A DNA stretch of 64,000 nt from Acidimicrobiales bacterium (GTDB lineage Bacteria; Actinomycetota; Acidimicrobiia; Acidimicrobiales; DATDAH01): assembly GCA_016794585.1 (NCBI GenBank), contig JAEUJM010000042.1, positions 1-64,000 on the forward strand, in the 5' to 3' direction. How positions within the stretch are numbered: position 1 is the stretch's first letter; every line of letters starts with the position of its first letter. The notes beneath the pieces were generated by a model, which saw only the letters and a program-made list of their open reading frames with translations, made no database searches and was not told where the DNA came from. Positions 21,941 to 51,310 of the stretch are shown here, piece by piece. A program made the position numbers and the translations under genes.

Positions 21941-21943
21941 GCG

Positions 21944-24456: not shown

Positions 24457-29068
<4,612 letters not shown>

Positions 29069-29148
29069 GGGGGAGTCAGCTTGCCGATCGGCACCAGGTG
29101 AGCGCCACCCGTCGGCCGCCCGGAGGAGCCGAGGAGCCCCGTCGACGA

Positions 29149-29607: not shown

Positions 29608-29650
29608 GTCGAAGACCGTACGCCAGCCGCACGCACCAGACCCGACGAGT

Positions 29651-31099: not shown

Positions 31100-31241
31100 C
31101 CGCCGTCATGGTCTCCATCGCCCCGAGGCTACGGATCGCCGCGACCTCGGTGACGCCCGGTGTCGCCCCTGGCCGAACGGGCGGTACCGGGGCCGTCCCG
31201 GCGCGAGGATCAGGGGCACGGCAGGCGTGAGAGGAGCGGTG

Positions 31242-32093
31242 GTGCGGGTACGACCGATGGTGCGAGAAGAGCTCGACGTGCTCGTCGAGTGGGCGGCGCT
31301 CGAGGGGTGGAACCCGGGCCGCGACGATGCGGACGCCTTCTGGGCCGCCGATCCCGACGGCTTCGTCGCTGCCGAGCTCGACGGCGAGCTCGTCGGCGGG
31401 GGTTCGATCGTCACCCACGGCCCCCGCTACGGCTTCATGGGGTTCTTCATCATGCGCCCCGAGTTCCGCGGTCAGGGCCTCGGCCGCGAGCTCTGGTTCA
31501 CCCGCCGCAACCGCCTCCTCGACCGGCTCGAGCCCGGCGCGGCCATCGAGATGGACGGCGTGTTCGCCATGGAGCCGTTCTACGCCGCCGGCGGCTTCGT
31601 CACCCAACACCGTGACCTGCGCTTCGCCGGCGTTGCCGCGACGGCCGACGACCCGCCGACGATCGAGGTCGTGGACGTCGCCGACGTGGCCTTCGAGGTG
31701 GTCGAGGCCTACGACCGCGCCCACTTCGCCGGCGAGCGCGTGGCGTTCCTGCGCCGTTGGCTGTCCCCGCAGGACGGCCACGCCCTCGCCGTGGTGGGCC
31801 CAGACGGGTGCCGCGGGTACACCGTGCTGCGACCCGCCCGGGAGGGGTACCGCTTCGGGCCGCTGTTCGCCGACGACGCCGAGGTGGCGGAGGCGCTGTA
31901 CGCCGCCGCCACCGCCCGGGTCGTGGGCGCCGCGGTCTTCCTCGACGTGCCTGAGCGCAACGCGGCGGCGCTGGCCCTGACCGAGCGCCACGGGCTGACG
32001 GAGGTCTTCGGCTGTGCCCGCATGACCTACGGCCCGCCGCCGGCGCTGCCGTGGGACGAGATCTACGGCGTCACCACCTACGAGCTGGGCTGA
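31242..32093 (+). CDS. GNAT family N-acetyltransferase with YitH/HolE-type C-terminal domain
   Basis: 283 residues from the GTG at 31242, which follows GAGGAG at a good distance; GTGs at 31239 and 31227 are alternatives. The GNAT core reads RPMVREELDVLVEWAALEGWNPG, with FFIMRPEFRGQGLGRELWF, the acetyl-CoA pyrophosphate loop RGQGLG. The second half (FEVVEAYDRAHFAGERVAFL, GYTVLRPAREGYRFGPL) is the extra GNAT-like domain of the YitH/HolE group. Substrate unknown. Divergent from the decarboxylase. Confidence 0.85.
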   Translation: MRVRPMVREELDVLVEWAALEGWNPGRDDADAFWAADPDGFVAAELDGELVGGGSIVTHGPRYGFMGFFIMRPEFRGQGLGRELWFTRRNRLLDRLEPGAAIEMDGVFAMEPFYAAGGFVTQHRDLRFAGVAATADDPPTIEVVDVADVAFEVVEAYDRAHFAGERVAFLRRWLSPQDGHALAVVGPDGCRGYTVLRPAREGYRFGPLFADDAEVAEALYAAATARVVGAAVFLDVPERNAAALALTERHGLTEVFGCARMTYGPPPALPWDEIYGVTTYELG

Positions 32094-32199
32094 CCAGGGG
32101 CGCCGCGACGATTCGCCTTGGGGCCACAGGCCCCCTGGGCCGTAGCGTCACCCCATCGCCTCGCCCACCCTCGCCCCGGCGCGCCATCGGCGCGGCTAC

Positions 32200-33144
32200 G
32201 TGCTCGTCCTCGGCGGGGCGACCCTGTTCGGCATCAACGCCAGCGTGTCCAAGGTCGTCCTCGCGAGCGGTCTCCAGCCGGCCCGCCTCACCGCGCTGAG
32301 GTGCACAGGGGCCGCCCTCGGCCTCCTGCTCGTGCTGACCACGGTGCGACGGACGTCGCTGCGCATCCCGAAGGCCGAGATCCCCAAGCTCATCGTGCTC
32401 GGGCTCAGCGGCGCCGCGCTCCTCCAGTGGCTGTACTTCGTCGCCCTCGACCGGCTGCCCGCCGCCATCGCCCTGCTGCTCGAGTTCACGGCGCCGCTCA
32501 TGGTGGCGGTCTTCTCGGTGGTCGTGCTGCGCCACCGAATCGCCCGCCAGGTGTGGTGGGCCCTCGGGCTGGCGCTCCTGGGGCTGGCGCTCGTCTCCCA
32601 GGTCTGGACCGACGTCGGCCTCGATCTGATCGGGGTCCTGGCCGCCCTCGGCGCCGCCGCCTTCCTCGCCACGTTCCACCTGCTCGGCAAGCACATGCTC
32701 GAGACCAGGGACCCGCTCGTCCTGAGCTTCTGGATGTTCGCCATCTCGTCGGTCTTCTGGGCCTTCGTCCAGCCGTGGTGGGACTTCGACCCCGGCGTCC
32801 TGACGGAATCCACGTCGATGCTCGGCCGACTCGCCGCCTATTCGATCCCCGTCTGGCTCGGCGTCCTCTGGGTGATCCTCCTGGGCACCCTCGCCCCGTA
32901 CGCCCTCGAGGTCTTCGGCCTGCGCCACCTCTCCCCCACCACGACGGGCATCGTGTCGATGATCGAGCCCGTGATCGCGGCCACTGTGGCGTGGATCTGG
33001 CTCGAGGAGGTCCTCAACGGCGTCCAGCTCCTGGGCGGTCTGCTCGTCCTCACCGGTGTCGGCCTCGTCCAGGTCGCCCGCACCGGCGCCGGGGAGCCCG
33101 AGCCCGAACCACCGTTGGTCGGCGAGGCCACGCCCGTGCAGTGA
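32200..33144 (+). CDS. EamA (DMT superfamily) transporter
   Basis: 314 residues with about ten membrane spans in two EamA repeats: the first from LGGATLFGINASVSKVVLA to AIALLLEFTAPLMVAVFS, the second from IGVLAALGAAAFLATFHLL to LSPTTTGIVSMIEPVIAATVAWIWLEE. Probably exports or imports a small metabolite; substrates in this superfamily are diverse. The GTG at 32200 is the first usable start; a further 15 sense codons lie upstream without ATG/GTG/TTG. Followed by an ArsR gene with its own promoter. Confidence 0.87.
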   Translation: MLVLGGATLFGINASVSKVVLASGLQPARLTALRCTGAALGLLLVLTTVRRTSLRIPKAEIPKLIVLGLSGAALLQWLYFVALDRLPAAIALLLEFTAPLMVAVFSVVVLRHRIARQVWWALGLALLGLALVSQVWTDVGLDLIGVLAALGAAAFLATFHLLGKHMLETRDPLVLSFWMFAISSVFWAFVQPWWDFDPGVLTESTSMLGRLAAYSIPVWLGVLWVILLGTLAPYALEVFGLRHLSPTTTGIVSMIEPVIAATVAWIWLEEVLNGVQLLGGLLVLTGVGLVQVARTGAGEPEPEPPLVGEATPVQ

Positions 33145-33150
33145 GTCCGC

Positions 33151-33171
33151 TATAGTTAGGTATGTGCCTAA
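33151..33171 (+). promoter_or_regulatory. Leaderless promoter with ArsR-type dyad
   Basis: TATAGT (33151-33156) is followed after 7 bp by the GTG start of the ArsR gene, so transcription and translation probably begin at the same base. TTAGG-N6-CCTAA (33156-33171) is an inverted repeat that covers the start codon; binding of the ArsR product would block its own operon. Confidence 0.55.
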
Positions 33172-33502
33172 GTATTCGGAGCCGGTGAGCCTGGTGTTCA
33201 ACGCCCTCGCCGACCCGACGCGTCGCCAGGTGATCGAGCGGCTGGGTAGAGGTCCCGCATCCACCTCGGAGCTCGCCGAGCCGTTCGCCATGGCGCTGCC
33301 GTCGTTCACCCAGCACCTCGCGGTGCTGGAAGGCGCCGGCCTGGTGACGTCGCACAAGCAGGGGCGGACTCGGACGTTCCGGCTCGCGCCACGCGGGCTC
33401 GAGACCGCCGAGGGCTGGCTGGCCGGCCAGCGCCGCACGTGGGAGCGGCGCCTGGACCAACTCGACGAGTTCCTCCTCAACCAGAAGCTGGAGACACCGT
33501 GA
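33164..33502 (+). CDS. ArsR family winged-helix regulator
   Basis: 112 residues from the GTG at 33164. NALADPTRRQVIERLGRGPASTSELAEPF followed by ALPSFTQHLAVLEGAGLVTSHKQGRTRTFRL is the ArsR helix-turn-helix and wing. The metal-binding Cys motif of classical ArsR/SmtB is absent, so it belongs to the non-metal group usually paired with an SRPBCC gene. The stop overlaps the SRPBCC GTG (GTGA), confirming translational coupling. Autoregulation is suggested by the dyad over its start. Confidence 0.9.
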   Translation: MPKYSEPVSLVFNALADPTRRQVIERLGRGPASTSELAEPFAMALPSFTQHLAVLEGAGLVTSHKQGRTRTFRLAPRGLETAEGWLAGQRRTWERRLDQLDEFLLNQKLETP

Positions 33503-33981
33503 CCTTCACCCCCCGTACCCTCGACCCCGCCCTCGACCTGGAGCTCGTGCGCGAGCTGCCCGTGACGCCCCAGGCCGTCTTCGCGGCCTGGACCGACCCC
33601 GAGTCGCTCAAGGTGTGGTTCGCGCCCCGCCCCTTCTCGATCGAGCGCTGCGAGATCGACCTCCGCCCCGGCGGCGGCTTCCGCACCGTGATGAACGACC
33701 CCGACGGCAACCAGATGATGGACAGCACCGGCTGTTATCTCGAGATCGTCCCCGACGAGCGCCTGGTGTGGACCGCCGCGCTCACGACGGACTACCGCCC
33801 CCAGGCCGGCGACATGCCCTTCACCGCGATCCTCGAGCTCGAGCCGACCGCCGGGGGGTGCCGCTACCGGGCCATCGCCGTGCACCAGGACCCCGAGGGG
33901 GCCCAGCAGCACGAGTCCATGGGCTTCCACGACGGCTGGGGCACGGTCGTCGACCAGCTGGTCGAGCACCTGCAGGCCTGA
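33499..33981 (+). CDS. AHSA1/SRPBCC family protein
   Basis: 160 residues. VRELPVTPQAVFAAWTDPESLKVWFAPRPFSIERCEIDLRPGGGFRTVM is the AHA1-type SRPBCC start (written in parts: VRELPVTPQAVFAAW, DPESLKVWFAP, EIDLRPGGGF). The C-terminal helix is GFHDGWGTVVDQLVEHL. The family binds small hydrophobic ligands. It is encoded with ArsR as a two-gene unit, the common arrangement in actinobacteria; the ligand and the stimulus are not known. Confidence 0.88.
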   Translation: MTFTPRTLDPALDLELVRELPVTPQAVFAAWTDPESLKVWFAPRPFSIERCEIDLRPGGGFRTVMNDPDGNQMMDSTGCYLEIVPDERLVWTAALTTDYRPQAGDMPFTAILELEPTAGGCRYRAIAVHQDPEGAQQHESMGFHDGWGTVVDQLVEHLQA

Positions 33982-34078
33982 CGCGGTCGGCGCGGCCCGT
34001 CGAGTGACGTCGGCGGACCGCCCCGCCGCGCCCGTCGTCTCCCGAGCACGGCCGGTTACGGCGGGTCAGGATGTGGGG

Positions 34079-34591
34079 ATGATCTCGCTCATCGTCCACG
34101 CGGTGCTTGGGGTGGCGACGACGGCGTTCGTGGGCTGGCGCAACCGCCGACTGTTCGCCGGGTCGTGGGCCGGCCGGCGGGTCACGCCATTGGAGGCGAC
34201 GTTCTACGTCGTCGGCCTCGTCTCGGTGGCCCTCGGCTGGTACTGCAACGTCCGCTACGTCGACCAGTTCGGCTCGACCGCGAGCTGGGTGCACTTCACC
34301 GAGTCGCTGTTCGCGAACTGGGCCTCGAGCTCCGGCGCCCAGGACTACATCATCGCCAACGTCGTGCTGTTCCCGCTGTGGACGATCGTCGACGGGCGCC
34401 GGCGCGGCATCGTCGTGCCGTGGGGCTTCTTCGTGATGAGCCTGTTCACCAGCTTCGCCTTCTCCATGGCCGCCTACCTGGCCGTGGTCGAGCGCCAGGT
34501 CCGCTACGACCGGGCTCACGGGTCGGCGGCGCCGGGCGGGACGGTCGCCTCTCCGCCGGCGCCGGCTTCGGTGCCCGCCGCCGGGGCGTGA
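34079..34591 (+). CDS. DUF2834 membrane protein
   Basis: 170 residues from the ATG at 34079, with about four hydrophobic segments: MISLIVHAVLGVATTAFVGW, FYVVGLVSVALGWYCNVRYV, and YIIANVVLFPLWTIVDGRRRG with FVMSLFTSFAFSMAAYLAVV. The last pair matches DUF2834. The function is unknown. A Pro/Ala-rich tail follows. It ends 7 bp before the PhyH gene on the same strand. Confidence 0.8.
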   Translation: MISLIVHAVLGVATTAFVGWRNRRLFAGSWAGRRVTPLEATFYVVGLVSVALGWYCNVRYVDQFGSTASWVHFTESLFANWASSSGAQDYIIANVVLFPLWTIVDGRRRGIVVPWGFFVMSLFTSFAFSMAAYLAVVERQVRYDRAHGSAAPGGTVASPPAPASVPAAGA

Positions 34592-34598
34592 GGACGAC

Positions 34599-35477
34599 GT
34601 GACCTCTCTCGAGCACGTCGACGCCTCCGCCGACCCGGCCTCGATGGTCGCCGCCCTCGAGCGCGACGGCGCGGTCGTGGTCGAAGGCCTGCTCGCCGCC
34701 GACGTCGTGGCCCGGGTGAACGACGAGGTCGAGGAGGCGGTGGCCGCCGACGACCCCTCGAACCCGATGTTCAACCCGATCATGCGGGCCTTCCACGGGG
34801 CCCACACCCGTCAGGTGTCCGGGCTGGCCCGGGTGTCGCGGACCTTCGCCACCGAGGTCCTGTGCCACCCGGTGCTGCTCGCCCTGGCCGACGCCGTGCT
34901 CCTGCCGGCGTGCGCCCGGTACCAGATGAACATCGGGCACCTGCTCGAGCGGGGCCCCGGCGCCGAGGCGCAGCTACTCCACCGGGACGAGGCGGTCTGG
35001 AGCGACGTCCCCCGCCCGGCGCCGGAGCTGCAGCTCGCCTCGGTGATCGCCTTCGTGGACTTCACGGCCGACAACGGCGCCACCCGCCTCGTGCCCGGCA
35101 GCCACCGCTGGCCCGACCGCGACCTGCCGCCGTTCGAGCAGGCGGCCCAGCCACCGCCCGGGCCCGACCAGGTCGTGTGCGCCGAGATGCCCGCGGGCTC
35201 GGCCGTGGTCTACACCGGCGGCGTGCTCCACGGTGGCGGCGCCAACACGTCCGACGTCCCCCGCCGCGGCGCCCACCTCAGCTACTGCCTCGGTTGGCTG
35301 AGGACCGAGGAGAACAACCTCCTCGCCGTCCCATCCGCGGTGGCCGCCACCCTCCCCCGCCAGGCCCAGGAGCTGCTCGGCTACGCGATGTATGACAACC
35401 TCTCGCGGGGCGGCGCCTACCTCGGCATGCTCGACAGCCAGGACCCCGTCGAGCTCCTCGCCCGCGGCGAGCTCTGA
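34599..35477 (+). CDS. Phytanoyl-CoA dioxygenase (PhyH) family protein
   Basis: 292 residues from the GTG at 34599. Fe(II) ligands: LLHRDEAVW (HxD) and GGVLHGGGANTSD (distal His). FVDFTADNGATRLVPGSHRW is the typical PhyH strand with the 2-oxoglutarate-side residues. The extended C-terminal part (TEENNLLAVPSAVAATLPRQAQELLGY) is characteristic of larger PhyH oxygenases. Not similar enough to the copy at 0.8-1.6 kb to be a recent duplicate. Substrate unknown. Probably co-transcribed with the DUF2834 gene. Confidence 0.88.
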   Translation: MTSLEHVDASADPASMVAALERDGAVVVEGLLAADVVARVNDEVEEAVAADDPSNPMFNPIMRAFHGAHTRQVSGLARVSRTFATEVLCHPVLLALADAVLLPACARYQMNIGHLLERGPGAEAQLLHRDEAVWSDVPRPAPELQLASVIAFVDFTADNGATRLVPGSHRWPDRDLPPFEQAAQPPPGPDQVVCAEMPAGSAVVYTGGVLHGGGANTSDVPRRGAHLSYCLGWLRTEENNLLAVPSAVAATLPRQAQELLGYAMYDNLSRGGAYLGMLDSQDPVELLARGEL

Positions 35478-35505
35478 CCGGCCCGTCCCAGGGCCCGACC
35501 GTGCG

Positions 35506-36465
35506 ATGACCGCGATGCCCGGCTTCGCCGATCCTGGCGAGCTCCGCGCCCTCCTCGACGGACGGCGGGGGCCACTGGGCGACCCCCGAGCGTCGGTCGA
35601 CGCGCTCGACGACGTGCGGGCGGTCGTCAAGGGCCTCGACCCGGTAGGGCGGGCCGAGCTCGGCCGTGCCCTGACGTCGATGCTCCCCGATCCGGAGTCC
35701 CCGATCGCCACCGCCGCGGCCCTCTCACTCGGGATCATCGGCGCCGACGTCGACCTCCCCGGGCTGGTGGACTGGCTGACCGGCGCGGACGCCGCCGACG
35801 CAGCGGCCCTCGACCGGGCGCCGATCGGCTTCGCCGCCGCGAGCCGGCCGACGTTGCGGGCGGAGCTGGTGGCGGTGGTGTGCCGCCACGTCCGACCGGA
35901 CCGGCCTGACCACGCCGCCGTGGTCGCCGCCGTCGACACCTGGATCGAGGCGCCGCCGGGAGGGCTCACCCGCGGCGATGTGCTCCTTCTGGTCGCCGAC
36001 CGCTGGGCCGATGCCATCGCCCGGTGGGCCCCGGAGTGGCTGACCACGGCGGACACCGGCGTGCTGGTCCGGCTCCCGACCCACTGGCACCGCCTCGCCG
36101 TGGCCGGCGCGCTGCGCCCGTGGCCGGACGCCGCCGCCGAGCCGGTCCGCACCGCCGGCCGCACCCAGGGTTGGAACCCCATCGAGCTCGAGGCCGTGCT
36201 GCGGGTCATGGCCGACGACGCCCCCGAGCTCTCCCGGCTCCCCGGCTTCGAGGACGAGCGCCGTTGGCGGATGGTCCGCGAGCGGTCGTGGGACTGGACC
36301 ATCTGGGCGGCCGACGACGGGACCTGGGCCATCGAGGTCGTGTGCGGGCGGGTCGGCGTGTACACCGTGGCCGAGCTGCTCACCGTCGGAGAGGCCGAGC
36401 GGCTGCTCGACGCCCCCGAGCCGGAGGTCACCGCCTTCGCCCGGGCCGTCGAAGCCCGGCACTGA
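35506..36465 (+). CDS. Hypothetical protein (helical N-terminus, beta-rich C-terminus)
   Basis: 319 residues from the ATG at 35506. The first roughly 200 residues look like HEAT-like or other helical repeats (RAELGRALTSMLPDPES, AALSLGIIGADVDLP). The end reads SWDWTIWAADDGTWAIEVVCG and VGVYTVAELLTVGEAERLL, a short beta-rich module. No catalytic motif and no signal peptide. Codon use matches the surroundings, so the gene is real. It starts 28 bp after the PhyH stop and may belong to that operon. Confidence 0.7.
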   Translation: MTAMPGFADPGELRALLDGRRGPLGDPRASVDALDDVRAVVKGLDPVGRAELGRALTSMLPDPESPIATAAALSLGIIGADVDLPGLVDWLTGADAADAAALDRAPIGFAAASRPTLRAELVAVVCRHVRPDRPDHAAVVAAVDTWIEAPPGGLTRGDVLLLVADRWADAIARWAPEWLTTADTGVLVRLPTHWHRLAVAGALRPWPDAAAEPVRTAGRTQGWNPIELEAVLRVMADDAPELSRLPGFEDERRWRMVRERSWDWTIWAADDGTWAIEVVCGRVGVYTVAELLTVGEAERLLDAPEPEVTAFARAVEARH

Positions 36466-36552
36466 GCGCCCCACGCCATGACGCCCGGGGTGATCGAGGC
36501 GCACCTCGAGGCGAGCCTCTCGGCGCTGATCGGCTGAGCAGCCCACCCGTGC

Positions 36553-36918
36553 TCAGGGTGTGGCGACCTCCGGGAACCTGGCGGCCAGCGCGCCGCTGAT
36601 CTCGTGGTGGCGCACCAGGAACGCCGCCTCGTCGAGCTTCTTGCGCCGCAGCCAGCCGGTGACCTCGTCGTTGCACTTGCTGGCGTTGCACGAGGGGCAG
36701 GCCGGCACGATGTTGGCCAGCGTGTAGCGCCCGCCCCGGGACAGGGCGAGGACGCAGTCCCGCTGGAGGGGCCGCCCCACCGCCCCGCAGTAGGCGCAGC
36801 CTCCCCACGCCTCCCGCAGCGCCGCCCACTGCTCGTCGCTCAGGTCGTGCTCGACCCGGTCCATGCGGCGCTTTCGCTTGCGGGCGCTGCGAGCGCGACG
36901 ACTGCGGTTGACCGCCAC
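36553..36918 (-). CDS. HNH endonuclease, apparently fused in frame to a gene remnant
   Basis: From the GTG at 36918 the product is 121 residues: basic start NRSRRARSARKRKRRMDRV, then the HNH core CAYCGAVGRPLQRDCVLAL, SRGGRYTLANIVPACPSCNASK. The two CxxC pairs that hold the structural zinc are present, but the first catalytic His is Cys (RDC instead of DH). This RDC variant resembles other actinobacterial HNH proteins as I recall them, so it may be natural. The frame stays open upstream to 37218, but that segment is a carotenoid-oxygenase remnant, so the GTG is preferred. Confidence 0.75.
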   Translation of the reverse strand: MAVNRSRRARSARKRKRRMDRVEHDLSDEQWAALREAWGGCAYCGAVGRPLQRDCVLALSRGGRYTLANIVPACPSCNASKCNDEVTGWLRRKKLDEAAFLVRHHEISGALAARFPEVATP

Positions 36919-37218
36919 GGCCGCAGCGTACGACTCACGCCCGCCCGGAGTGACCTGGCGGTCGTCGATGCGAGCGAACTCCGACATCGAATCGTCCAGA
37001 TGATCGAGGGCCGCCTGGCCGGTCGAAGGCGACAGGCGCATCCGGGTGAAGGCACCGATGCGGTTCGGATTGACACCGAAGCTGAAGTCGCTCCACCACG
37101 AGAAGTCCACGACCACGTCAGTGCCTTCGTCATAGGCGTTGCCGAAGTGCCACACGAAGAACGGGTCCGTCTCGATCCACCGCAGCTCGCTGCCGTCCCT
37201 CGGGGATGAGCGCGACCC
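36919..37218 (-). pseudogene. Remnant of a carotenoid cleavage oxygenase (RPE65 family)
   Basis: The 100 codons upstream of the HNH gene read PRDGSELRWIETDPFFVWHF, then GNAYDEGTDVVVDFSW, AFTRMRLSPSTG and SEFARIDDR. WIETDP-FFVWHFGNAYDEG is the conserved strand with the iron-ligand His of carotenoid oxygenases, and EFARID matches the family EFPRID. A TGA at 37221-37219 precedes it, and the N- and C-terminal domains are missing (the family is about 450-500 residues). It is thus an internal fragment, read in frame into the HNH gene. Confidence 0.7.
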
Positions 37219-37293
37219 TCAGCCGGCGCAGGCGTCGAGCCCGAGGTCCGTCGCCAGCTCGTTGACCGGAGCGAAGAGCTGGTCGAGGGTCGC
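37219..37293 (-). pseudogene. C-terminal tail of an unidentified gene
   Basis: On the minus strand ATLDQLFAPVNELATDLGLD with a final ACAG and TGA (37221-37219) looks like the natural end of an amphipathic, probably exported protein. Upstream the frame becomes low-complexity at about 37293, exactly where an ArsR-like tail begins on the other strand. It is interpreted as a fragment trapped at a recombination junction. The parent family was not identified. Confidence 0.4.
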
Positions 37294-37367
37294 GCTCGGC
37301 CCGCTACCAGCGCCTCGACGCCCTCCTGGCGGACCTGCCCGACGAGAACCGAGGAGAAGCCCAGTGA
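37293..37367 (+). pseudogene. C-terminal tail of an ArsR-type regulator
   Basis: The plus strand reads RSARYQRLDALLADLPDENR with GEAQ and a TGA at 37365-37367. This resembles the last 20 or so residues of ArsR regulators that precede SRPBCC genes. It overlaps the next start as GTGA, like the intact ArsR-SRPBCC pair at 33.5 kb. An in-frame TGA at 37263 and the loss of the helix-turn-helix show the gene is broken. Confidence 0.5.
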
Positions 37368-37405
37368 ACGAAGCCGAGATCATCGTCGACGACTAGCTGC
37401 CCGTC

Positions 37406-37822
37406 GTGCGCCTCATCCGTGAGTTCGACGCCCCGCCCGAGAAGGCGTTCCGGGCCCACGTCGATCCCGACCTGTTCGTGCAGTGGAACTGGATCGACGA
37501 CTACACGGTCACCTTCGACCACTTCGACTGCCGCACCGGCGGCGCCTACCGCATCACCATGTCCGGTCCTGAGATGGCCGGCAGCGTCCACGGCTCGTTC
37601 CACGACGTCGTCCCGAACGAGCGCATCGTCCAGACCTTCTCCCCCGACGGCATGCCCGACCTCGTCGTGCTCGAGCGCCGCACCTTCGAGGACCTCGGCG
37701 ACGGCCGCACCCGCCTCACGTCCCAGTCGCTCGTCGAGAGCTTCGAGTACCGCGAAGTCTTCCTCGACGCCGAGCTGGTCCAGGCCTGGACCCGCCTCGA
37801 CGCCCTCCTGGCGACGCTCTAG
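37406..37822 (+). CDS. SRPBCC (AHSA1-like) protein, 5' end interrupted by TAG
   Basis: 138 residues from the GTG at 37406: VRLIREFDAPPEKAFRAHVD, DLFVQWNWIDDYTVTFDHFD, and C-terminal VESFEYREVFLDAELVQAWTRL. The original start appears to be the GTG at 37364 (MNEAEIIVDD), which overlaps the ArsR tail; an in-frame TAG at 37394-37396 separates the two parts. Restarting at GTG 37406 would lose only 14 residues, so the protein could still fold. Its co-encoded regulator is truncated. Function unknown; the intact relative at 33.5 kb is the same family. Confidence 0.7.
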   Translation: MRLIREFDAPPEKAFRAHVDPDLFVQWNWIDDYTVTFDHFDCRTGGAYRITMSGPEMAGSVHGSFHDVVPNERIVQTFSPDGMPDLVVLERRTFEDLGDGRTRLTSQSLVESFEYREVFLDAELVQAWTRLDALLATL

Positions 37823-37945
37823 GACTTCAGCACGACCCGGTCGCGGCGAGGCCTGCCCTCGCAGCGTGACGTCGATCGGCAACAGGATGTCGAGCCGGCG
37901 CGGGACCGGCCACCCACTGCGTCGGCCCGGAGCTCCTTCGACCAG

Positions 37946-38155
37946 TCACACCTGGCCCGTCCCCTGCCGCACCCATCGACCTCCGATGCAGGCGTACCTG
38001 TACGGCTCGATGTACATCGAGTCCCCCGGTGTGCACTGCTGGCGTCGTGCACCTGTGCTGTCGACTAACTCGAACTCGTCGTCGCGGATGCGGCGAAGGA
38101 CACCCGGGGTGCCGTCCCCACAGTCCTCGACCTCGATCTCCTCGTGTTCGTCCAT
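37946..38155 (-). CDS. Hypothetical small acidic protein
   Basis: 69 residues starting MDEHEEIEVEDCGDGTPGVL. It contains two central Cys (QQCTPGDSMY and YACIGGRWV) and no membrane segment. Codon choice is acceptable for the region, but no family is recognised, and the antisense strand also has a long open frame. It could be a real small gene or chance; the same-strand neighbour at 38.2 kb has a similar character. Confidence 0.4.
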   Translation of the reverse strand: MDEHEEIEVEDCGDGTPGVLRRIRDDEFELVDSTGARRQQCTPGDSMYIEPYRYACIGGRWVRQGTGQV

Positions 38156-38193
38156 GCCTCATTGTCGCGTCCAAGGCCTAGGCGTCGAGCGGA

Positions 38194-38511
38194 CTAGACC
38201 TTCCGGCAAACCCAGAAGCAATCCGTGCCGCCCTGCACCTGCTTGCAGACGAGCCGGCAGCGGCCTGCGTTTGCGTCACGTACGGCCTGCACGTCGTCCG
38301 AAGAGGCTGGTCGAGCGACAAGTTCCACGTCTGGCGGCACCCGGATCCCGCGATCCCGCAGCATCGTCGCCAGGTCCCGGGCGGGATCTCCGTCACTCCC
38401 GAGAAACGAGGCTGCGACGTCGGCAAGGATCTCGTCTGCGTCGTCAGGAAGGGCCCATGCGCTCATGTACTGCAGTCTCGCGCCGCACCAGACCTCGGCA
38501 TCGCGAGACAT
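38194..38511 (-). CDS. Hypothetical Cys-containing protein
   Basis: 105 residues from the ATG at 38511. The C-terminus has two CxxxC pairs (CRLVC and CFWVC), and the middle is acidic and helical (DDADEILADVAASFLG). GC at third positions is lower than in the main genes. No family recognised. It is the last gene before the tRNA terminator and the proposed element boundary. Confidence 0.45.
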   Translation of the reverse strand: MSRDAEVWCGARLQYMSAWALPDDADEILADVAASFLGSDGDPARDLATMLRDRGIRVPPDVELVARPASSDDVQAVRDANAGRCRLVCKQVQGGTDCFWVCRKV

Positions 38512-38562
38512 GGATCTCTGCGAGCCGGGCGCTACCGGCAGCGACCATCGTCAGCAACTGAC

Positions 38563-38590
38563 GAAGGCCCCTCCCGGAGGAGGGGCCTTC
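38563..38590. terminator. Rho-independent-type hairpin downstream of the tRNA-Met remnant
   Basis: GAAGGCCCCTCC, loop CGGA, GGAGGGGCCTTC: a perfect 12-bp stem. It lies 9 bp downstream (minus strand) of the 3' end of the tRNA fragment at 38599, the place where a tRNA terminator is expected. A clear run of T is missing, as is common in actinobacterial terminators. Confidence 0.8.
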
Positions 38591-38598
38591 TCAGAACT

Positions 38599-38643
38599 TG
38601 GTGGCGGGGGCAAGATTTGAACTTGCGACCTTCGGGTTATGAG
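38599..38643 (-). pseudogene. 3' half of tRNA-Met (CAU), probable attachment-site scar
   Basis: Read on the minus strand: anticodon loop CTCATAA (anticodon CAT), stem side CCCGA, variable region, T-arm GCAAG-TTCAAAT-CTTGC, acceptor strand CCCCGCC, discriminator A and encoded CCA. The 5' half does not fit: the five bases before the loop (TGTAA) cannot pair with CCCGA, and no D-arm or matching GGCGGGG acceptor strand precedes it. The gene is therefore cut at its anticodon loop, a common crossover point for tyrosine-recombinase integration. The terminator is retained downstream. Confidence 0.8.
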
Positions 38644-38760
38644 TTACACGATCAGAATCTCAGCCCGTACCAACGCGTACCGGAATGTGCCCTTGACCTG
38701 GGGTTTCTTCGATCAGACTACACCGGCCGTGCCAGTCCGTACACCCCCGTACCGCACCGC

Positions 38761-38781
38761 ACAGTAGAAGGAACAGTAGAA
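38761..38781. repeat. Tandem direct repeat near the element boundary
   Basis: ACAGTAGAA occurs at 38761-38769 and 38773-38781, a 12-bp period, about 120 bp inside the proposed element end. Repeats of this size near a tRNA attachment site often serve as recombinase arm sites. The surrounding 38644-38906 contains no convincing gene. Confidence 0.4.
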
Positions 38782-38906
38782 ATCCGACCCTGGGACGGGC
38801 CCCGCAGCAGCATTGTTCTCGATCTCGCTGGGCGACCGTCAGAACATGCTGCTGTGGGCTGTCTCCGGTTGAGGGTGGCGGTCCGCGGGCGATCTTCGGG
38901 TTCTGG

Positions 38907-39239
38907 TCACACCCGCGGGGCGAACATGATGACGGCGACCCCGACGAGGCAGATGGCGGCGCCCAGGTAGTCGAAGCGGTCTGGCTTGAAGCCGTCCATG
39001 ATGATGCCCCAGGCGAGTGATCCGGCGACGAAGATGCCGCCGTACGCGGCGAGGATGCGGCCGAAGTTGGCGTCGTCTTGGAGGGTGGCGACGAACCCGT
39101 AGCCGGCGAGCGCGACGATGCCGGCGCCGATCCAGGCAACGCCGCGGTGCTCGCGGACGCCTTGCCAGATCAGCCACGCGCCACCGATCTCCGCGATCGC
39201 GGCCAAGACGAACAGCGCGACCGTTCGCAGGACGCTCAT
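38907..39239 (-). CDS. YnfA family (UPF0060) small membrane protein
   Basis: 110 residues with four predicted membrane helices: [60 protein letters not shown] and [19 protein letters not shown], and the connecting DGFKPDRFD, all diagnostic for YnfA. The family is related to small multidrug/metal exporters. It overlaps the upstream Cys-rich membrane protein gene by ATGA and is the third gene of a MerR-led operon, so it may contribute to metal export or tolerance. Confidence 0.93.
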
Positions 39240-39520
39240 GAACGATACGAACGCATGCTTGCGTCGTCGGCGCGACCAGCGATGGGATCCTCAATGGGCA
39301 CCGTGCCAGCGCTGCGACCACCGAACCCGAGGACCCGGGCAAGGATCCAGCTGCCGCCGATGAGGACCACGGCGATCGCGGCGACGAGCCCGAGGAACAC
39401 CCCGGCGGTGGCGGCGAGCCCGCCGGTCACCCCGAGCGCGGCGATGATCGGCGGAGCGCAACAGGCCACGCATGCAGCGGCGGCGAAGCCGCCTCGTCCG
39501 AGTGCTTGGCGCGCCTTCAC
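39236..39520 (-). CDS. Small membrane protein with vicinal Cys, MerT-like
   Basis: 94 residues from a GTG overlapping the MerR stop (GTGA). First helix [20 protein letters not shown] carries CVACC; vicinal Cys in the first helix is the hallmark of mercury transporters such as MerT and MerC. A second helix is [20 protein letters not shown]. The protein lacks a clear periplasmic MerP partner. It is in the same operon as a MerR regulator with a canonical operator. Substrate (mercury or another soft metal) is inferred. Confidence 0.65.
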
Positions 39521-40041
39521 GGCGCGGTCCCGAGCCGGTCGCCGACCTCATGCGGCAACAGGGTGCATGCGATGACCGACCCATCTCGGTCGTCGCGCCG
39601 CATCCCGAGCAGGACGGGTTGGTCCGCGGTCGTTGGGCCGTCGCTGGTGCAGCCGCAGGTGTCGTCGCACGGTCCGGCCGGGGTGTGGGTCCCGAGCGCG
39701 ACGGCCACCCGTCGAAGCTCGAGGGTGAACGCCTCGAGTTCGGCGACCTTGGCCTGGGCGTCTGCGATCTTGGTGTCGACCAGGTCACGGAGTCGCCCCT
39801 GGACCGGGGCGCACTCGTCGTCGCCGAGCAGTGCGAGGAGCTCGCTGATCTCGTCGAGGGACAGCCCGAACCTCTTGGCCCGCCCGATGAACGACAGGCG
39901 TTCGAGGTGGGTGTCGTCGTAGCTGCGGTAGCCAGACGGGGTGCGGTCGGGGCGCACCAGCCCGGACTGCTCGTAGAACCGAAGCGTCGTTGGTGGGAAC
40001 CCGGTGCGTTCAGCGACCTGGGAGATCGAATAGCCGTCCAC
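39517..40041 (-). CDS. MerR family metal-responsive regulator (element copy 1)
   Basis: 174 residues from the GTG at 40041. N-terminus GYSISQVAERTGFPPTTLRFYEQSGLV with PDRTPSGYRSYDDTHLERL is the MerR helix-turn-helix and wing. The C-terminal part has a Cys cluster (GPCDDTCGCTS), suitable for metal sensing. The frame is open to an ATG at 40080, but that ATG lies inside the -35/-10 operator, so the later GTG, 8 bp after the -10, is preferred. Operon: merR, Cys-rich membrane protein, ynfA. Confidence 0.88.
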   Translation of the reverse strand: MDGYSISQVAERTGFPPTTLRFYEQSGLVRPDRTPSGYRSYDDTHLERLSFIGRAKRFGLSLDEISELLALLGDDECAPVQGRLRDLVDTKIADAQAKVAELEAFTLELRRVAVALGTHTPAGPCDDTCGCTSDGPTTADQPVLLGMRRDDRDGSVIACTLLPHEVGDRLGTAP

Positions 40042-40049
40042 ACCGGCCA

Positions 40050-40080
40050 CCGTAAGGGTTCGACCCGACTCGAAGGTCAA
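40050..40080 (-). promoter_or_regulatory. MerR-type promoter, 19-bp spacer (MerR1 operon)
   Basis: On the minus strand TTGACC (40080-40075) and TTACGG (40055-40050) are 19 bp apart, the overlong spacing that MerR proteins untwist on activation. The spacer holds CGAGTCGGGTCGA-like dyad bases. An almost identical copy lies at 40478-40508. Confidence 0.8.
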
Positions 40081-40107
40081 GTCGCAAGCCAGGTGCCTCG
40101 TCGGCGC

Positions 40108-40428
40108 TCAGCAGAGCTTGCCACTGCGGTGGCGCCGCACTGCGGCGGCACCGACGACGATCGCGGCGACGGCGAGGCCGACCAGCAGCCACCACTCCCC
40201 GGCGACGGCGCCCGACACCGCGGCGACGCCCCCCACGGCGAACGGAACGGCCAGGCACGCGACCGCACACGCCGCGGCCAGCAAGCCCGCCTTGAAACCC
40301 GTCCGAGAGGTCGTTGCGGCGGGCGCCGACCGGTCGGGGGTGCTGCAGCCACAACCCGAATCGGCGCACGAGCGATCGACGGCGCAGGCTTCGGTGTGCT
40401 GGTCGGGCGGGGGGCTAAGGGTGCTCAT
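40108..40428 (-). CDS. Cys-rich small membrane protein under MerR control
   Basis: 106 residues from the ATG at 40428. A soluble Cys-rich head (TEACAVDRSCADSGCGCST) precedes two membrane helices, FKAGLLAAACAVACLAVPFA and GEWWLLVGLAVAAIVVGAA. The first helix holds CAVAC, similar in position to CVACC of the neighbouring protein. The tail is basic with a terminal Cys (RSGKLC). No family name is certain; a metal-binding or metal-transport role follows from the Cys pattern and from the MerR promoter 49 bp upstream. Confidence 0.6.
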   Translation of the reverse strand: MSTLSPPPDQHTEACAVDRSCADSGCGCSTPDRSAPAATTSRTGFKAGLLAAACAVACLAVPFAVGGVAAVSGAVAGEWWLLVGLAVAAIVVGAAAVRRHRSGKLC

Positions 40429-40477
40429 CGGGTGCCTCCGTGGCGGTCGGCCGCCCGGCTGGCGGCTGCTGCTCGGA

Positions 40478-40508
40478 CCGTAAGGGCAGTACCCGACTCG
40501 AAGGTCAA
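40478..40508 (-). promoter_or_regulatory. Second MerR-type promoter, 19-bp spacer
   Basis: TTGACC (40508-40503) and TTACGG (40483-40478) are 19 bp apart, upstream of the Cys-rich protein gene. Compared with the copy at 40050-40080 only four spacer bases differ (CGAA against ACTG), so the same regulator should bind both. Confidence 0.8.
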
Positions 40509-40885
40509 GCGCCGATCTCGCTGTCGTCGAACGGGCACTCGCCGCGGTCACACGCACCCATGACCGTGGTGACTTCGCGGCGCACTGTGCGCAGTTCGGC
40601 GATCTTCGTGTCGATGCGCTCGAGCACGGCTTCGAGGCGCCACCGCTCCGATGCGCAGGTCGCGTTGCCCTGATCGGTGGCGTGCAACGCGTCGACGACC
40701 TCGTCGAGGGTGAACCCGAGTGCCTGTAGTCGGCGCGCCAGTCGTATCCGTTCGACGGTTGCCGGTGTGTAGGTGCGGTATCCCGATGCCAGTCGTTCCG
40801 GTATCGGGAGGAGGCCGCGGCGTTCGTAGAACCGCACCGTGTCCACGCTCACGCCGGACTGCTCCGCGACCTGACCGATCTTCAC
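40505..40885 (-). CDS. MerR family regulator (element copy 2)
   Basis: 126 residues from the GTG at 40885: MKIGQVAEQSGVSVDTVRFYERRGLLP with ERLASGYRTYTPATVERI. The dimer helix ends in metal-ligand-like Cys residues: NATCASERW near residue 80 and GACDRGECPF at the C-terminus, the spacing used by Hg(II)/Pb(II)/Cd(II) sensors. It is divergent from the CC-motif protein gene, and a MerR operator lies between them. The 3' end touches the -35 of the second MerR promoter. Confidence 0.9.
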   Translation of the reverse strand: MKIGQVAEQSGVSVDTVRFYERRGLLPIPERLASGYRTYTPATVERIRLARRLQALGFTLDEVVDALHATDQGNATCASERWRLEAVLERIDTKIAELRTVRREVTTVMGACDRGECPFDDSEIGA

Positions 40886-40973: not shown

Positions 40974-41420
40974 ATGACGAGCCAGCCCATCCCGATCGTC
41001 TGCGACATGACCGATGCACCCGACACCACCGAGGAACGGCTCGCCGAGTACCGCCGGCTCTTCGGCGGCGATCTGGTCGGCCGTGAACGCACCGAGGAGG
41101 GGATCCGGTTCCGGTTTCGGGTTCGCGACGGTCTCGCCGAGGAGATCCGCGACCTCGCCGCCCGGGAGAAGGCGTGCTGCGCGTTCTTCGATTTCGATAT
41201 CCGCGAACACGGAGACGAGATCACCTGGGACGCGTCCGTCATCGACGACCCCGTCGCCCGCCAGATCCTCGACGATTCCTACGCCCTGCCCGACACGCTG
41301 GCCGGTTCCGTTGCCGAGCTCTTCGACCGGTTCGCCGACAACGGGCTCGAGATCGTGATCAACGACGACGGTGTCATGCGACCCGCGAACAACACCGACC
41401 TCGGCATCGACGTCCTGTAG
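40974..41420 (+). CDS. CC-motif protein of MerR-linked metal-resistance loci
   Basis: 148 residues from the ATG at 40974; an earlier in-frame ATG (40914) lies within the operator and is rejected. The product has PIVCDMTDAPDTTEERLAEY, then LAAREKACCAFFDFDIREHG. The vicinal CC followed by an aromatic patch, together with the single upstream Cys, recurs in small proteins encoded beside merR genes, suggesting metal binding. No membrane segment. Biochemical role not established. Confidence 0.6.
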   Translation: MTSQPIPIVCDMTDAPDTTEERLAEYRRLFGGDLVGRERTEEGIRFRFRVRDGLAEEIRDLAAREKACCAFFDFDIREHGDEITWDASVIDDPVARQILDDSYALPDTLAGSVAELFDRFADNGLEIVINDDGVMRPANNTDLGIDVL

Positions 41421-41424
41421 CCCG

Positions 41425-41625
41425 GATCCAGTTGGTGCCGTGTTCGTGCATCGGTTCACCCGCGACCCGTTGCGCGCCAAGAGCCTCGAGCCGGCGGGCT
41501 TCGGTCTCGATGTCGACGAGGTCGATGTCGAGGTGCATGCGGTTCTTGACCCGCGTGGCCTTGGAGCAGCGGCTCCGGCCCCCTGTCGTCGGGGTCCAGC
41601 AGCGGGACGCGAGTCGGTCTACAAC
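41425..41625 (-). pseudogene. Frameshifted VOC/glyoxalase-like remnant
   Basis: One minus-strand frame reads RVPLLDPDDRGPEPLLQ and another continues KNRMHLDIDLVDIETEARRL then EALGAQRVAGEPMHEHGTNW. Together they give the C-terminal half of a VOC protein (DP..GP..L.Q, KNRxHLDI, LGA), with one frame change between the two halves. The N-terminal half and the final strand (DPEGNEFC in relatives) are missing. It fills the 257-bp gap between the CC-motif gene and TauE/SafE. Confidence 0.6.
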
Positions 41626-41677
41626 AGCGGCGAGGTCCGCTCCCGGCGCCGTTGGCGACCACCGAATGGTCACCACC

Positions 41678-42433
41678 TCAGTACAGCTGGCCGACGAGGA
41701 ACCAGACTGCGAAAGCGGTGAGAAGGACCCCGAACGGCTTGCGCAACCGGTCAGCGGGGAGATGGGCAGCGAACCTGGCGCCGGCGAGGGTTCCCGGCAC
41801 GAGACCAAGCGTGAAGGCGACGGTGATGGACCACACGACGTCACCCACCAGAGCGTGAGTCACGAGGGTCGGGATGGTCAGGGCTGCGGCGACGACGAGG
41901 CTGGTACCGGTGGCTTCGGGCATCTGCAGCCCGAACAGGACGATGAACAGGGGTACGAGCAGGAACCCGCCCCCGTTGGCGAGCAGACCTGCGAGGAACC
42001 CCACCGCCGCCGCCATCCCGACGACCAGAGCGGCGCTGTTCCGTCTCGCGGCGGCCCGTGCTGTCGCCTCCGGGTCGGCGCGGGTGGGCCACAGGATCCT
42101 GACCCCGACGGCGATCAGCACAACACCTGACACGACCACGAGCGGGCCGCCACCGACGTAGCGGCTGCACAGCGACCCGAGAACCGAGGCCGGTACTCCG
42201 CCGGCGACAGCCCGTCGGGCCATCGTCCAATCGATGCGGTCGGCCTTGGAGTAGGTCCACGCACCCGCCGCGGAACCCGGGAGCAGCGCCGGGAGCGGGC
42301 AGACGACCGCAGCGAGACCCGGGACACCGATGAGGGCCAACAGCGGCGTGGCGAACGCGGAACCAACCCCGAACAGTCCGTAGAGAACGCCGATGGCCAC
42401 ACCCGCGGCGACGATCTCGGGGAACGGAGGCAT
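41678..42433 (-). CDS. TauE/SafE family transporter
   Basis: 251 residues with eight predicted helices. The two repeats start VAIGVLYGLFGVGSAFATPLL and AAVGFLAGLLANGGGFLLVP, the TauE/SafE signature (G-x-G-G-x-x-x-x-P-x-L). The family exports sulfite, sulfoacetate or other organic anions. The gene is divergent from a LysR regulator, with a dyad between, so LysR probably controls it. Confidence 0.9.
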   Translation of the reverse strand: MPPFPEIVAAGVAIGVLYGLFGVGSAFATPLLALIGVPGLAAVVCPLPALLPGSAAGAWTYSKADRIDWTMARRAVAGGVPASVLGSLCSRYVGGGPLVVVSGVVLIAVGVRILWPTRADPEATARAAARRNSAALVVGMAAAVGFLAGLLANGGGFLLVPLFIVLFGLQMPEATGTSLVVAAALTIPTLVTHALVGDVVWSITVAFTLGLVPGTLAGARFAAHLPADRLRKPFGVLLTAFAVWFLVGQLY

Positions 42434-42465
42434 GCGTTCAGTACACCTGACGACCTTGTATTGGC

Positions 42466-42496
42466 GCTATGCCATATCACCTCTATGTGGCATAGC
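42466..42496. promoter_or_regulatory. LysR-type operator between TauE/SafE and LysR genes
   Basis: GCTATGCCA (42466-42474) and TGGCATAGC (42488-42496) form a perfect 9-bp inverted repeat with a 13-bp spacer, ending 8 bp before the LysR ATG. The position suits binding and autoregulation by the LysR protein. Confidence 0.65.
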
Positions 42497-42504
42497 CTTT
42501 GGCT

Positions 42505-43398
42505 ATGGAGTTCCATCAGCTCGCCGCGGTCGTCGCGGTCGCCGACCACGGGAGCTTCACCGGTGCAGCCGAAGCCCTCGGTCACTCGCAGCCTTCGATC
42601 TCGTTGGCCGTGCGACGCCTCGAACGCGAGGTCGGCATCGCGCTGTTCGAACGGCTGTCCACCGGCGTGGTGCCCACCACCGCCGGCGAGGCCCTGCTGG
42701 GTCCGGCCCGCCAGGCGCTACGCGACCGCGACATCGGACTCGAGGCAGTCGCAGACGTCTCGGGCCTCGCTGCGGGCCACCTCGACATCGCCTGCATCCC
42801 GACCCTCGCCGCCGACATCGCGACGCCGATCCTGGGAGCATTCCGACGCTGCCACGACCACGTGTCGATCCGCCTTCGCGAGCCCGAGGTCGGAAGCTCG
42901 GTCGAGGACCTTGTTCGACGGGGTCAGAGCGAACTCGGGTTCTGCGCCCTTCCCGCCGATGGCACCGGTCTCGCGCAACTCCTCATCGAGGACCAGGAGC
43001 TCGTCGCGGTCCTCTCTGCCGGCCACGCGGCCGCCTACGAACGAAAGGGGGCGATCCCCATCGAGCGTCTCGCTGACCTGCCGCTCATCACCGCACCCGA
43101 GGGGGCCTCGACCCACACCCAACTCGCTGCCGCCCTAGACGCAATCGGCGTCATGCTGGTCCCCGGAATCGTCACCGATCATCGAGACACGATTGTTCCC
43201 CTCGTCCTGGCCGGTGCCGGCGCCGCCGTGCTCCCCCGCGCCGTCGCCGAGACCACTCACTCCCCGGATGTCACGGTGCTCCCTCTCCACCCGGCGATGA
43301 CGAGAAGTGTCGGGCTCGTGCACCGCCAGACCGTCCTGTCACCCGCAGCCAGGACCATCATCGAGCTCGCGAGCCAAGGCCGTGATGCCTGGCTCTGA
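42505..43398 (+). CDS. LysR family transcriptional regulator
   Basis: 297 residues from the ATG at 42505 (a TTG two codons earlier is possible). N-terminal HTH: MEFHQLAAVVAVADHGSFTGAAEALGHSQPSISLAVRRLE, given here by its pieces MEFHQLAAVVAVADHG and HSQPSISLAVRRLEREVG. The periplasmic-binding-fold C-half starts GHLDIACIPTLAADIATPIL and contains LVLAGAGAAVLPRAVAE. The likely target is the divergent transporter gene. The coinducer is unknown; sulfur compounds are plausible because CysL/TauE pairs are. Confidence 0.9.
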   Translation: MEFHQLAAVVAVADHGSFTGAAEALGHSQPSISLAVRRLEREVGIALFERLSTGVVPTTAGEALLGPARQALRDRDIGLEAVADVSGLAAGHLDIACIPTLAADIATPILGAFRRCHDHVSIRLREPEVGSSVEDLVRRGQSELGFCALPADGTGLAQLLIEDQELVAVLSAGHAAAYERKGAIPIERLADLPLITAPEGASTHTQLAAALDAIGVMLVPGIVTDHRDTIVPLVLAGAGAAVLPRAVAETTHSPDVTVLPLHPAMTRSVGLVHRQTVLSPAARTIIELASQGRDAWL

Positions 43399-43529
43399 TT
43401 CGCCGGTCAGGCGGATTGTCGACCACTCGAGAGCGACGGGGCCCACATCCCACCGCAATTCCGGATCGGCGCGGCGGCCCCGAGACCGCCGAGGAGTGGA
43501 CGGACAGCCGGGCGGTCCAGACTCGTTGT

Positions 43530-44483
43530 GTGGTCACGGTTGGATGGCTCGTCATCGCGCTGGGCGGAGTCGCGGCCATCGTGTGGGGAGCCGAGACCTT
43601 CGCCGAGCATCTCGCTGTCGCGTCGACACGGCTCGGCGTGAGCGCGTTCGCCCTTGCGCTTCTCCTTGCGGGGGCGGAGCCCGAGGAGCTGGCGACAGCG
43701 GTGACGGCATCGCTGCGCGACGCTCCGGCGATCGCGTTTGGCGATGTCATCGGCGCGAACGTCGCCATCTGCCTCGTAGCACTGGGCGTCGGTGCCCTGA
43801 TCGCTCCACTCCCGTTCGACAAGTCCGTGATGCGCTACGGCCTCGGTGGTCTGGCGGCGGGAGCGCTCGCTGCCTGTCTCTCGTGGGATGGGACGATCGG
43901 TCGGCTTGGCGGGTTGGTACTCATCACGACGTATGCCGTGTTCGTAGGGTTGATCTGGGTGCTCGAACGGCGACCGCCGACCCTGGGCGAAACCGCTGAG
44001 CTGGCAGAGGCCGCGGAGTACGAAGAGCCGGGGCGGGTTGGCATCGAGCTGATGCTCGTCTTCGCCGGAGTTACGGCGATGGCCGTCGGCGCTATGGCGC
44101 TGGTCGAGGGTATCCGACGTATCAGCGACGTGGAGTCCACGCAGACCGTCCTGGGCTTGACGGTGGTTGGCTTCGCTACCGCGTTCGAACTGGTGGCGCT
44201 CGCTTGGTCGAGCGCGCGACGCGGTATCAGCACTGCCGTCGTTGCGGCCGTCGTCGGATCGTTCACCTACAACGTCACCATGACCTTGGGCGCCGGTGCC
44301 CTGGCCCGCCCGCTTTCCATCGCCGACGCCGCATCGCTGCACGTGCCCTGGATCACGATGCTTGCCAGTCTCACGCTGGTCCTCGTCCTCGCATTCCCGC
44401 GCCACGAACTGCGGCGTGGAGCCGGCCTGTTGCTTCTCACCACCTACCCGTTGTTCGTCATCTGGGTAGTGCTCACGGGCTGA
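43530..44483 (+). CDS. Sodium/calcium exchanger family protein
   Basis: 317 residues from the GTG at 43530. Two Na_Ca_ex repeats: the first holds LLLAGAEPEELATAVTASLRD and FGDVIGANVAICLVAL (the G-[DS]-V-x-G-[SA]-N motif), the second LTVVGFATAFELVALAWSSA with VVGSFTYNVTMTLG. Ten or eleven helices in all. Exact ion (Ca, Mg or other) unknown. A clear central acidic loop (ETAELAEAAEYEEPG) separates the repeats. Confidence 0.87.
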   Translation: MVTVGWLVIALGGVAAIVWGAETFAEHLAVASTRLGVSAFALALLLAGAEPEELATAVTASLRDAPAIAFGDVIGANVAICLVALGVGALIAPLPFDKSVMRYGLGGLAAGALAACLSWDGTIGRLGGLVLITTYAVFVGLIWVLERRPPTLGETAELAEAAEYEEPGRVGIELMLVFAGVTAMAVGAMALVEGIRRISDVESTQTVLGLTVVGFATAFELVALAWSSARRGISTAVVAAVVGSFTYNVTMTLGAGALARPLSIADAASLHVPWITMLASLTLVLVLAFPRHELRRGAGLLLLTTYPLFVIWVVLTG

Positions 44484-44518
44484 GGCGTCGGGTCACCACC
44501 TTGACCGATCCCAGGACC

Positions 44519-47182: not shown

Positions 47183-47856
47183 GAGAGCGCTCCGTCGTGG
47201 TCGGTGACCAACTCGCCGTCGTCCATCGACCAGAGGTGGTCGAAGCGGCGGGCGACTTCGGGGTCATGGGTGGTGACGAGCAGAGCGGCACCGTGGGCGG
47301 CGGCATCGAGCAGGGCCCGGACCACCGCTGCACCGTTCACGTGGTCGAGTTGGCCCGTGGGCTCGTCGGCCAAGATGAGTCGCGGCTTCCCGGCCAGGGC
47401 GCGCGCGACAGCGACTCGCTGTGCCTGCCCGCCGGACAGTTCCTCGGGCAGCTTCGAAGCAAGCGAGTTCAGGTCGAGCGCTTCGAGCGCGGTGAGCGCG
47501 GCGGCGGTGGCCGCTCTCTCACTTTCGCCGCCGAGGATGAGTGGTAGGGCGACGTTCTCGACCACGTCGAGCGGCGGGAGCAGGCTGGGCCCTTGCAAGA
47601 TCACCCCGACGGGGCCCGGCCGCAAGTCGTCCAGCCCGCCGATCGCGGGCCATCGCACGTCACCGGCGGTCGGATTGTCGAGGCCGGCGATCAGGTGGAG
47701 CAGCGTCGACTTGCCGGAGCCTGAGGGGCCGACGAGGGCAATCTGCTGGCCCGGTTCGATCTCACAGGTCGCGCCGTGGACGGCAACGACGGCGGCCGCG
47801 CCGGCACCGAAGGTGCGGCCGAGGCCATCACAACGGACCAGGGGCCTCGACCTCAT
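47170..47856 (-). CDS. ABC ATPase of module A, canonical
   Basis: 228 residues, MacB/LolD type. Walker A ALVGPSGSGKSTLLHLIAG, Q-loop VILQGPSLLP, signature LSGGQAQRVAVARAL, Walker B RLILADEPTGQLD, H-loop LVTTHDPEV. All catalytic residues are present. Overlaps the permease start downstream and, by 4 bp, the second ATPase upstream, so the four genes (lipoprotein, ATPase, ATPase, permease) form a tight operon. Confidence 0.92.
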   Translation of the reverse strand: MRSRPLVRCDGLGRTFGAGAAAVVAVHGATCEIEPGQQIALVGPSGSGKSTLLHLIAGLDNPTAGDVRWPAIGGLDDLRPGPVGVILQGPSLLPPLDVVENVALPLILGGESERAATAAALTALEALDLNSLASKLPEELSGGQAQRVAVARALAGKPRLILADEPTGQLDHVNGAAVVRALLDAAAHGAALLVTTHDPEVARRFDHLWSMDDGELVTDHDGALSWSA

Positions 47857-51262: not shown

Positions 51263-51310
51263 CCCGGGAGTACGCAGAGTCGCAACCATGAGCGGTAGAG
51301 CCATCGAGCG

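Follow-up and report, generated by a model that had tools for sequence, protein, structure and literature searches.

A displaced half of the initiator tRNA gene

The stretch of DNA analysed here (the window, 64,000 nucleotides, corresponding to bases 1-64000 of the 158,036-bp contig C42 in a 5.49-Mb draft genome of 51 contigs) contains the 3' half of a tRNA-Met gene, and raises the question of how this half came to stand there and whether the genes to its right are native. A sequence-only reading had proposed that the tRNA is broken at the anticodon loop and that the genes right of 38,644 entered by site-specific integration. The break was borne out to within a base: the minus strand from 38643 to 38601 reads CTCATAACCCGAAGGTCGCAAGTTCAAATCTTGCCCCCGCCAC and comprises the anticodon loop, the 3' strand of the anticodon stem, the variable loop, the T-arm and the acceptor strand, and the bases 5' of it (...GATTCTGATCGTGTAA, followed by CTCATAA) are unable to pair with CCCGA, so that an anticodon stem is impossible. 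Neither ARAGORN nor Rfam reported a tRNA in the window. The terminator that the same reading had placed after the tRNA stands as far as the strong hairpin is concerned (Table 1), but a clear U-run is absent.

A search of the 5.49-Mb genome with the half tRNA gave one further match, on the same strand of the same contig (C42:144442-144487, 96% over 46 nt, E 8e-15), and since this sole other match falls inside a complete tRNA-Met, the half is not a chance resemblance. The complete gene (C42:144443-144519, 77 nt) carries the same CTCATAA core, at a core-to-core distance of 105,844 bp, and lies beyond the window on the right, where an intact tRNA-Met had been predicted. It bears the signature of an initiator: positions 1:72 (U x C) do not form a Watson-Crick pair, A11-U24 is present, and GGG/CCC adjoins the anticodon loop; the three G-C pairs at this last place identify the target as initiator rather than elongator tRNA-Met, which refines the type first assigned to the half. 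Our search of the 51-contig draft detected no second complete initiator tRNA. The tyrosine integrase expected beside the second core was found as well, just inside the right end (C42:142798-144201), in an open, full-length frame with Phage_integrase and Phage_int_SAM_3 domains (Pfam) and, by alignment to solved integrases, the set of residues R, K, H-x-x-R, H and Y.

The G+C content changes stepwise at both ends, from 72.8% in the left flank to 68.7% between the junctions and 73.4% in the right flank. A UPF0182 gene lies upstream of the initiator tRNA both here and in eight relatives, which marks the right flank as the native neighbourhood of the tRNA; comparison of the left flank with 17 loci downstream of initiator tRNAs gave no convincing synteny, with a weak match in G054 only. 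The second core, the integrase, the repeat pairs described below, the G+C step and the relatives all support acquisition of the genes right of 38,644 by site-specific integration. We therefore consider it very probable that the half tRNA forms a junction of an integrative and conjugative element (ICE), 105.8 kb long, inserted at the single detected initiator tRNA-Met gene, insertion of such an element at a tRNA gene being an already known kind of event. In this way acquired DNA with exact ends can be delimited: about 25 kb lies in the window and a further 80 kb outside it. That the half is instead a stray pseudogene, produced by duplication or deletion and no integration, is extremely improbable: tRNA fragments do have other origins too (PMC9897764), but the break lies exactly in the anticodon loop, an intact partner and an integrase are present, repeat pairs stand at both ends in a layout that recurs in relatives, and the second junction contradicts such an origin.

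Table 1 Features of the left junction, the window and the element beyond it (positions up to 64000 are those of the window; C42 denotes contig coordinates)
Feature	Position	Strand	Remarks
Host chromosome left of element	1..38600		G+C 72.8%
Strong 12-bp hairpin 3' of displaced half	38563..38590	(-)	presumed former tRNA terminator; no clear U-run
Displaced initiator tRNA-Met 3' half	38601..38643	(-)	probable host allele, T-stem A-U pair
att core CTCATAA (anticodon loop)	38637..38643	(-)	second copy C42:144481-144487
Element-derived stretch adjoining core, GGTACGGGCTGAGATTCTGATCGTGTAA	38644..38680	(-)	partly conserved at same place in some relatives
Left direct-repeat pair TTCTACTGTTCCTTCTACTGT	38761..38781	(-)	probable integrase arm sites; partner pair C42:144351-144371
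Left-end cargo: YnfA/UPF0060 protein, two MerR regulators	38907..40885	(-)	
In-window ICE cargo: TauE, LysR regulator, Na/Ca-exchanger type, ABC/FtsX exporters, two-component regulators	40974..64000		
Methylase/ResIII helicase set	C42:69404-74071		
VirD4-type coupling protein (T4CP)	C42:87948-89246		T4SS-DNA_transf 107 bits
VirB4-like ATPase	C42:96763-98070		weak: P-loop_TraG 26.5 bits (cut-off 25.8); AAA_10 below cut-off
TrbL/VirB6-like protein	C42:99547-100980		weak Pfam score
M23 peptidase/glucosaminidase	C42:102099-103238		
Tad locus: TadA-, T2SSF-, TadE- and Tad-domain proteins	C42:107936-112502		
TrwC/MOBF relaxase with helicase domain	C42:117094-120438		TrwC 216 bits; open, full-length frame

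The exchange point and the two tRNA alleles

Both ends share exactly 20 nt, CTCATAACCCGAAGGTCGCA, starting at the anticodon loop, with the core CTCATAA as the first 7; the left-end copy occupies 38624-38643. Upstream of the shared stretch the left end reads ...GTGTAA, belonging to the element, and the right end ...GTCGGG, belonging to the host. Further along, the T-stem is GCAAG/CTTGC in the displaced half and GCAGG/CCTGC in the rebuilt gene. Bounded as it is by differences between host and element, the crossover is placed by this comparison within the 20 identical nt. The 7-nt anticodon loop is the usual crossover place of anticodon-type islands. The difference affects both members of one T-stem pair and leaves them able to pair, an indication that both versions stem from working tRNAs. 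The A-U version is found in 8 other genomes of the order, and in G095, G155, G172, G215, G236 and G292 the initiator tRNA matches that contain it are full-length or nearly so; on the simplest reading, the host gene would have had A-U and the element would have swapped in G-C.

According to the mechanism that we propose, the integrase would have recombined the attP of a circular element with the initiator tRNA-Met gene, in the region of its anticodon loop. The 3' half carried by the element, together with the hairpin following it, would have restored the gene at the right end, and the original 3' half and hairpin of the host would have been displaced by 105.8 kb, to 38.6 kb in the window. On excision, the predicted circle junction is GTGTAACTCATAACCCGAAGGTCGCAGG and the predicted empty site GTCGGGCTCATAACCCGAAGGTCGCAAG. 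The anticodon-type islands of Islander, of which 2,083 were counted, have a rebuilt tRNA at one end, a 3' fragment at the other and a crossover in the anticodon loop (PMC4383910); the arrangement here is the same, the rebuilt tRNA and the displaced 3' fragment having the same orientation, with the integrase between them. Directly 3' of the rebuilt half there is an element-supplied hairpin (C42:144380-144442), with similar ones in several relatives, which may end transcription of the tRNA ahead of the integrase gene.

Repeat pairs as candidate arm sites

Short tandem repeats just inside the left end had been noted as possible recombinase arm sites. The repeats are real, and ACAGTAGAA occurs in contig C42 at four positions only, 38761 and 38773 at the left end and 144351 and 144363 at the right, that is, one pair per end. 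Across 298 genomes of the same order, the pattern TTCTACYGNNNNTTCTACYG has 46 occurrences in 31 genomes, compared with 11 for the reversed control pattern; viral contigs gave no match to the TTCTACTGT pair pattern. An initiator core lies close to the repeat pair in 17 of the 30 loci fetched, where the pair has a constant orientation; in 7 loci it starts 132-150 nt ahead of the core, in 10 loci 99-116 nt past the core start. No initiator core is in reach in the remaining 13, two of which carry at a similar distance a T-loop-like motif of another tRNA. In some relatives, conservation extends to the stretch between left pair and core (GGTACGGGCTGAGAT..CGATCG). With a partner pair at the other end and fixed distances to the core in relatives, the repeat pairs are most likely arm-binding sites of the integrase, which would bind the tandem TTCTACTGT pairs flanking the core. 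Short repeats flank the core also in systems of the lambda/Tn916 type; here, binding through an N-terminal domain would be the expected counterpart. The fixed layout of core and arm pair provides a simple search signature for such elements.

Transfer genes and the class of the element

The element runs past the window to C42:144487, so that positions 38.6-64 kb of the window consist of ICE cargo. Genes within it were called by codon usage, and domains were assigned by a Pfam scan of part of the frames. Beyond the genes of Table 1, the cargo includes CopC/CopD, a P-type ATPase and ABC exporters with two-component regulators. The VirB4 and VirB6 assignments have weak Pfam scores and are supported by colinear relatives, the VirB4-like gene being colinear in two sibling elements, G002 and G268, and in a plasmid of Iamia, all described below.

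In PMC3218068, an integrase, a T4CP, a VirB4-like protein and a TrwC relaxase characterise T4SS-type ICEs. The present element is bounded by an attachment site on each side and has an integrase gene, a relaxase and a VirD4-type coupling protein, along with the weakly matching VirB4-like protein, and by that definition is a T4SS-type ICE rather than an AICE. It shares the integrase, the TrwC relaxase and the T4CP, and probably the VirB4-like protein, with the actinobacterial T4SS-type MOBF ICEs, of which that survey gives 17 in no further detail and, in the text consulted, with no discussion of target site or Tad locus; Acidimicrobidae are reported there to be devoid of AICEs. We rejected an AICE, with an FtsK/SpoIIIE-type TraB, a replication initiator and no T4SS, as relaxase and VirD4-type T4CP are found instead; in the frames scanned, the only FtsK match was sub-threshold, in the TadA-like protein. 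Transfer would proceed via the MOBF relaxase, the VirD4-type coupling protein and the VirB4/VirB6-like proteins, perhaps with the help of the Tad pilus.

The same transfer genes bear on whether the element might be a prophage. Phages too use tyrosine integrases at tRNA genes, and the integrase has matches in phages, but the comparison with phages and listed plasmids gave distant relatives only, mostly at about 30-36%; given the relaxase and type IV transfer genes, and no capsid, portal or terminase among the proteins scanned with Pfam, a prophage has a negligible probability.

Several further features of the gene content were observed. The Tad pilus region (C42:107936-115357) lies between the relaxase and the T4SS genes. 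The transfer region also holds a possible ABC-3C-type defence operon (C42:90136-93604, with a weak CTD7 match) and a gene for a DUF6119 protein (C42:93763-95199). Two near-identical small secreted PepSY-type proteins (MRKKLIAAGAGV...) are encoded about 13.4 kb apart (54183-54512 and C42:67926-68255), each adjoined by exporter and two-component genes.

Sibling elements and the Tad locus

An integrase match at E<=1e-60 was obtained in 49 of the 298 same-order genomes. Many of the closest matches adjoin the initiator tRNA core, and several distant ones adjoin tRNA-Leu or tRNA-Arg. Of the eight closest integrases within the named collection, one is from a MAG labelled Actinomyces and the others are from MAGs of Acidimicrobiia, Acidimicrobiales or Microthrixaceae; the core is near six of the eight, in four of them as an intact initiator tRNA. 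Relatives have this integrase family beside the same tRNA, again with the core and paired repeats in fixed geometry.

Two sibling elements at the initiator tRNA, in G002 (C1:885132-1002796) and G268 (C1:4144326-4240435), are particularly close. Both belong to the same order, use the same tRNA and core, and have integrases 81% and 74% identical over the aligned part, respectively. The backbone from 82141 to 120717 (relaxase, T4CP, VirB4 and Tad) is colinear or nearly so, with identities of 65-95% in G002 and about 36-76% in G268, whereas the cargo differs. The G002 integrase contains in-frame stops, and its element has a complete initiator tRNA at both ends (L108, C1:1002721-1002796), unlike the element here; what it brought may have been an entire tRNA gene, not just the 3' half.

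These siblings also bear on whether the element is still an active ICE. One could imagine the same integration, with the element by now a decayed or only mobilizable island, immobile alone and retained because it completes the initiator tRNA. Many siblings at the site do have integrase stops or a relaxase in pieces, and such islands often decay (PMC9513070), but here the integrase and relaxase both have open, full-length frames, and G002 and G268 have a colinear backbone; we regard this reading as possible, with an appreciable though minor chance of being right.

A Tad ATPase lies at most 10 kb from a relaxase in five further chromosomal loci, two in G002, two in G209 and one in G268. The 77-kb plasmid unnamed1 of Iamia sp. 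SCSIO 61187 (NZ_CP050949.1) shares the MOBF relaxase, the T4CP and an SCO6880-type protein at about 52-75% identity, but differs from the element in being circular, in its unrelated integrase (26% identical) and in having no initiator core, arm pair or Tad block; an IS3 transposase now stands where the Tad block is absent. We rejected this plasmid as an excised circle of the element family on account of its integrase and the absent core and arm pair. Given its presence in the related chromosomal loci and its absence at the IS3 transposase of the plasmid, the Tad locus appears to belong to the ancestral backbone and to have been lost from the plasmid, and the pilus may have a role in mating. 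The C2 relaxase of G209 has the same coordinates as the relaxase in the Iamia plasmid, which makes it probable that G209 is Iamia SCSIO 61187.

Stacking of elements at the initiator tRNA

Among 58 genomes of the order, at least 12 combine an initiator tRNA with a 3' half that stands apart from it. In G209, six halves accompany one complete copy in a span of 136 kb, and each of six integrase genes lies immediately 3' of a core copy; displaced halves number six over 196 kb in G268 and two over 235 kb in G088. An apparent complete tRNA in G268 (L059) was discarded, as it is merely an ARAGORN fit to a half copy. By comparison, tandems of at least three number only 4 among the 3,919 islands of Islander (PMC4383910), against six displaced halves each in G209 and G268. 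Judged from these genome sequences, the initiator tRNA serves as a hotspot of integration throughout this order of actinobacteria, most members of which are uncultured. We found no description of an initiator-tRNA hotspot or of Acidimicrobiia ICEs in the open-access literature, which is weak evidence of novelty.

Given such stacking, the 105.8 kb could itself be a composite of two or more elements whose inner junctions have since been lost. Stacking is common at the initiator tRNA in relatives, and YnfA/MerR modules lie near both ends; within the 105.8 kb, however, there is no third core copy, further repeat pair or second tyrosine integrase, and we consider a composite improbable. The modules themselves, YnfA/UPF0060 and MerR-type genes at 38907-40885 and C42:140139-141832, are similar in make-up, not identical.

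Starting from a single inserted ICE, one could speculate, with the balance of probability clearly against so broad a claim, that it represents a distinct Acidimicrobiales family specialised on the single initiator-tRNA gene, overwriting its 3' half, stacking in tandem and using a Tad pilus in its mating apparatus. Insertion of such an element replaces half of an essential gene, and variation in initiator-tRNA sequence may for that reason track mobile elements rather than host lineage. At L021 (Microthrixaceae SSF14) a repeat pair of the other type (TTCTACCGG) precedes the core, as would be expected if two elements abut there.
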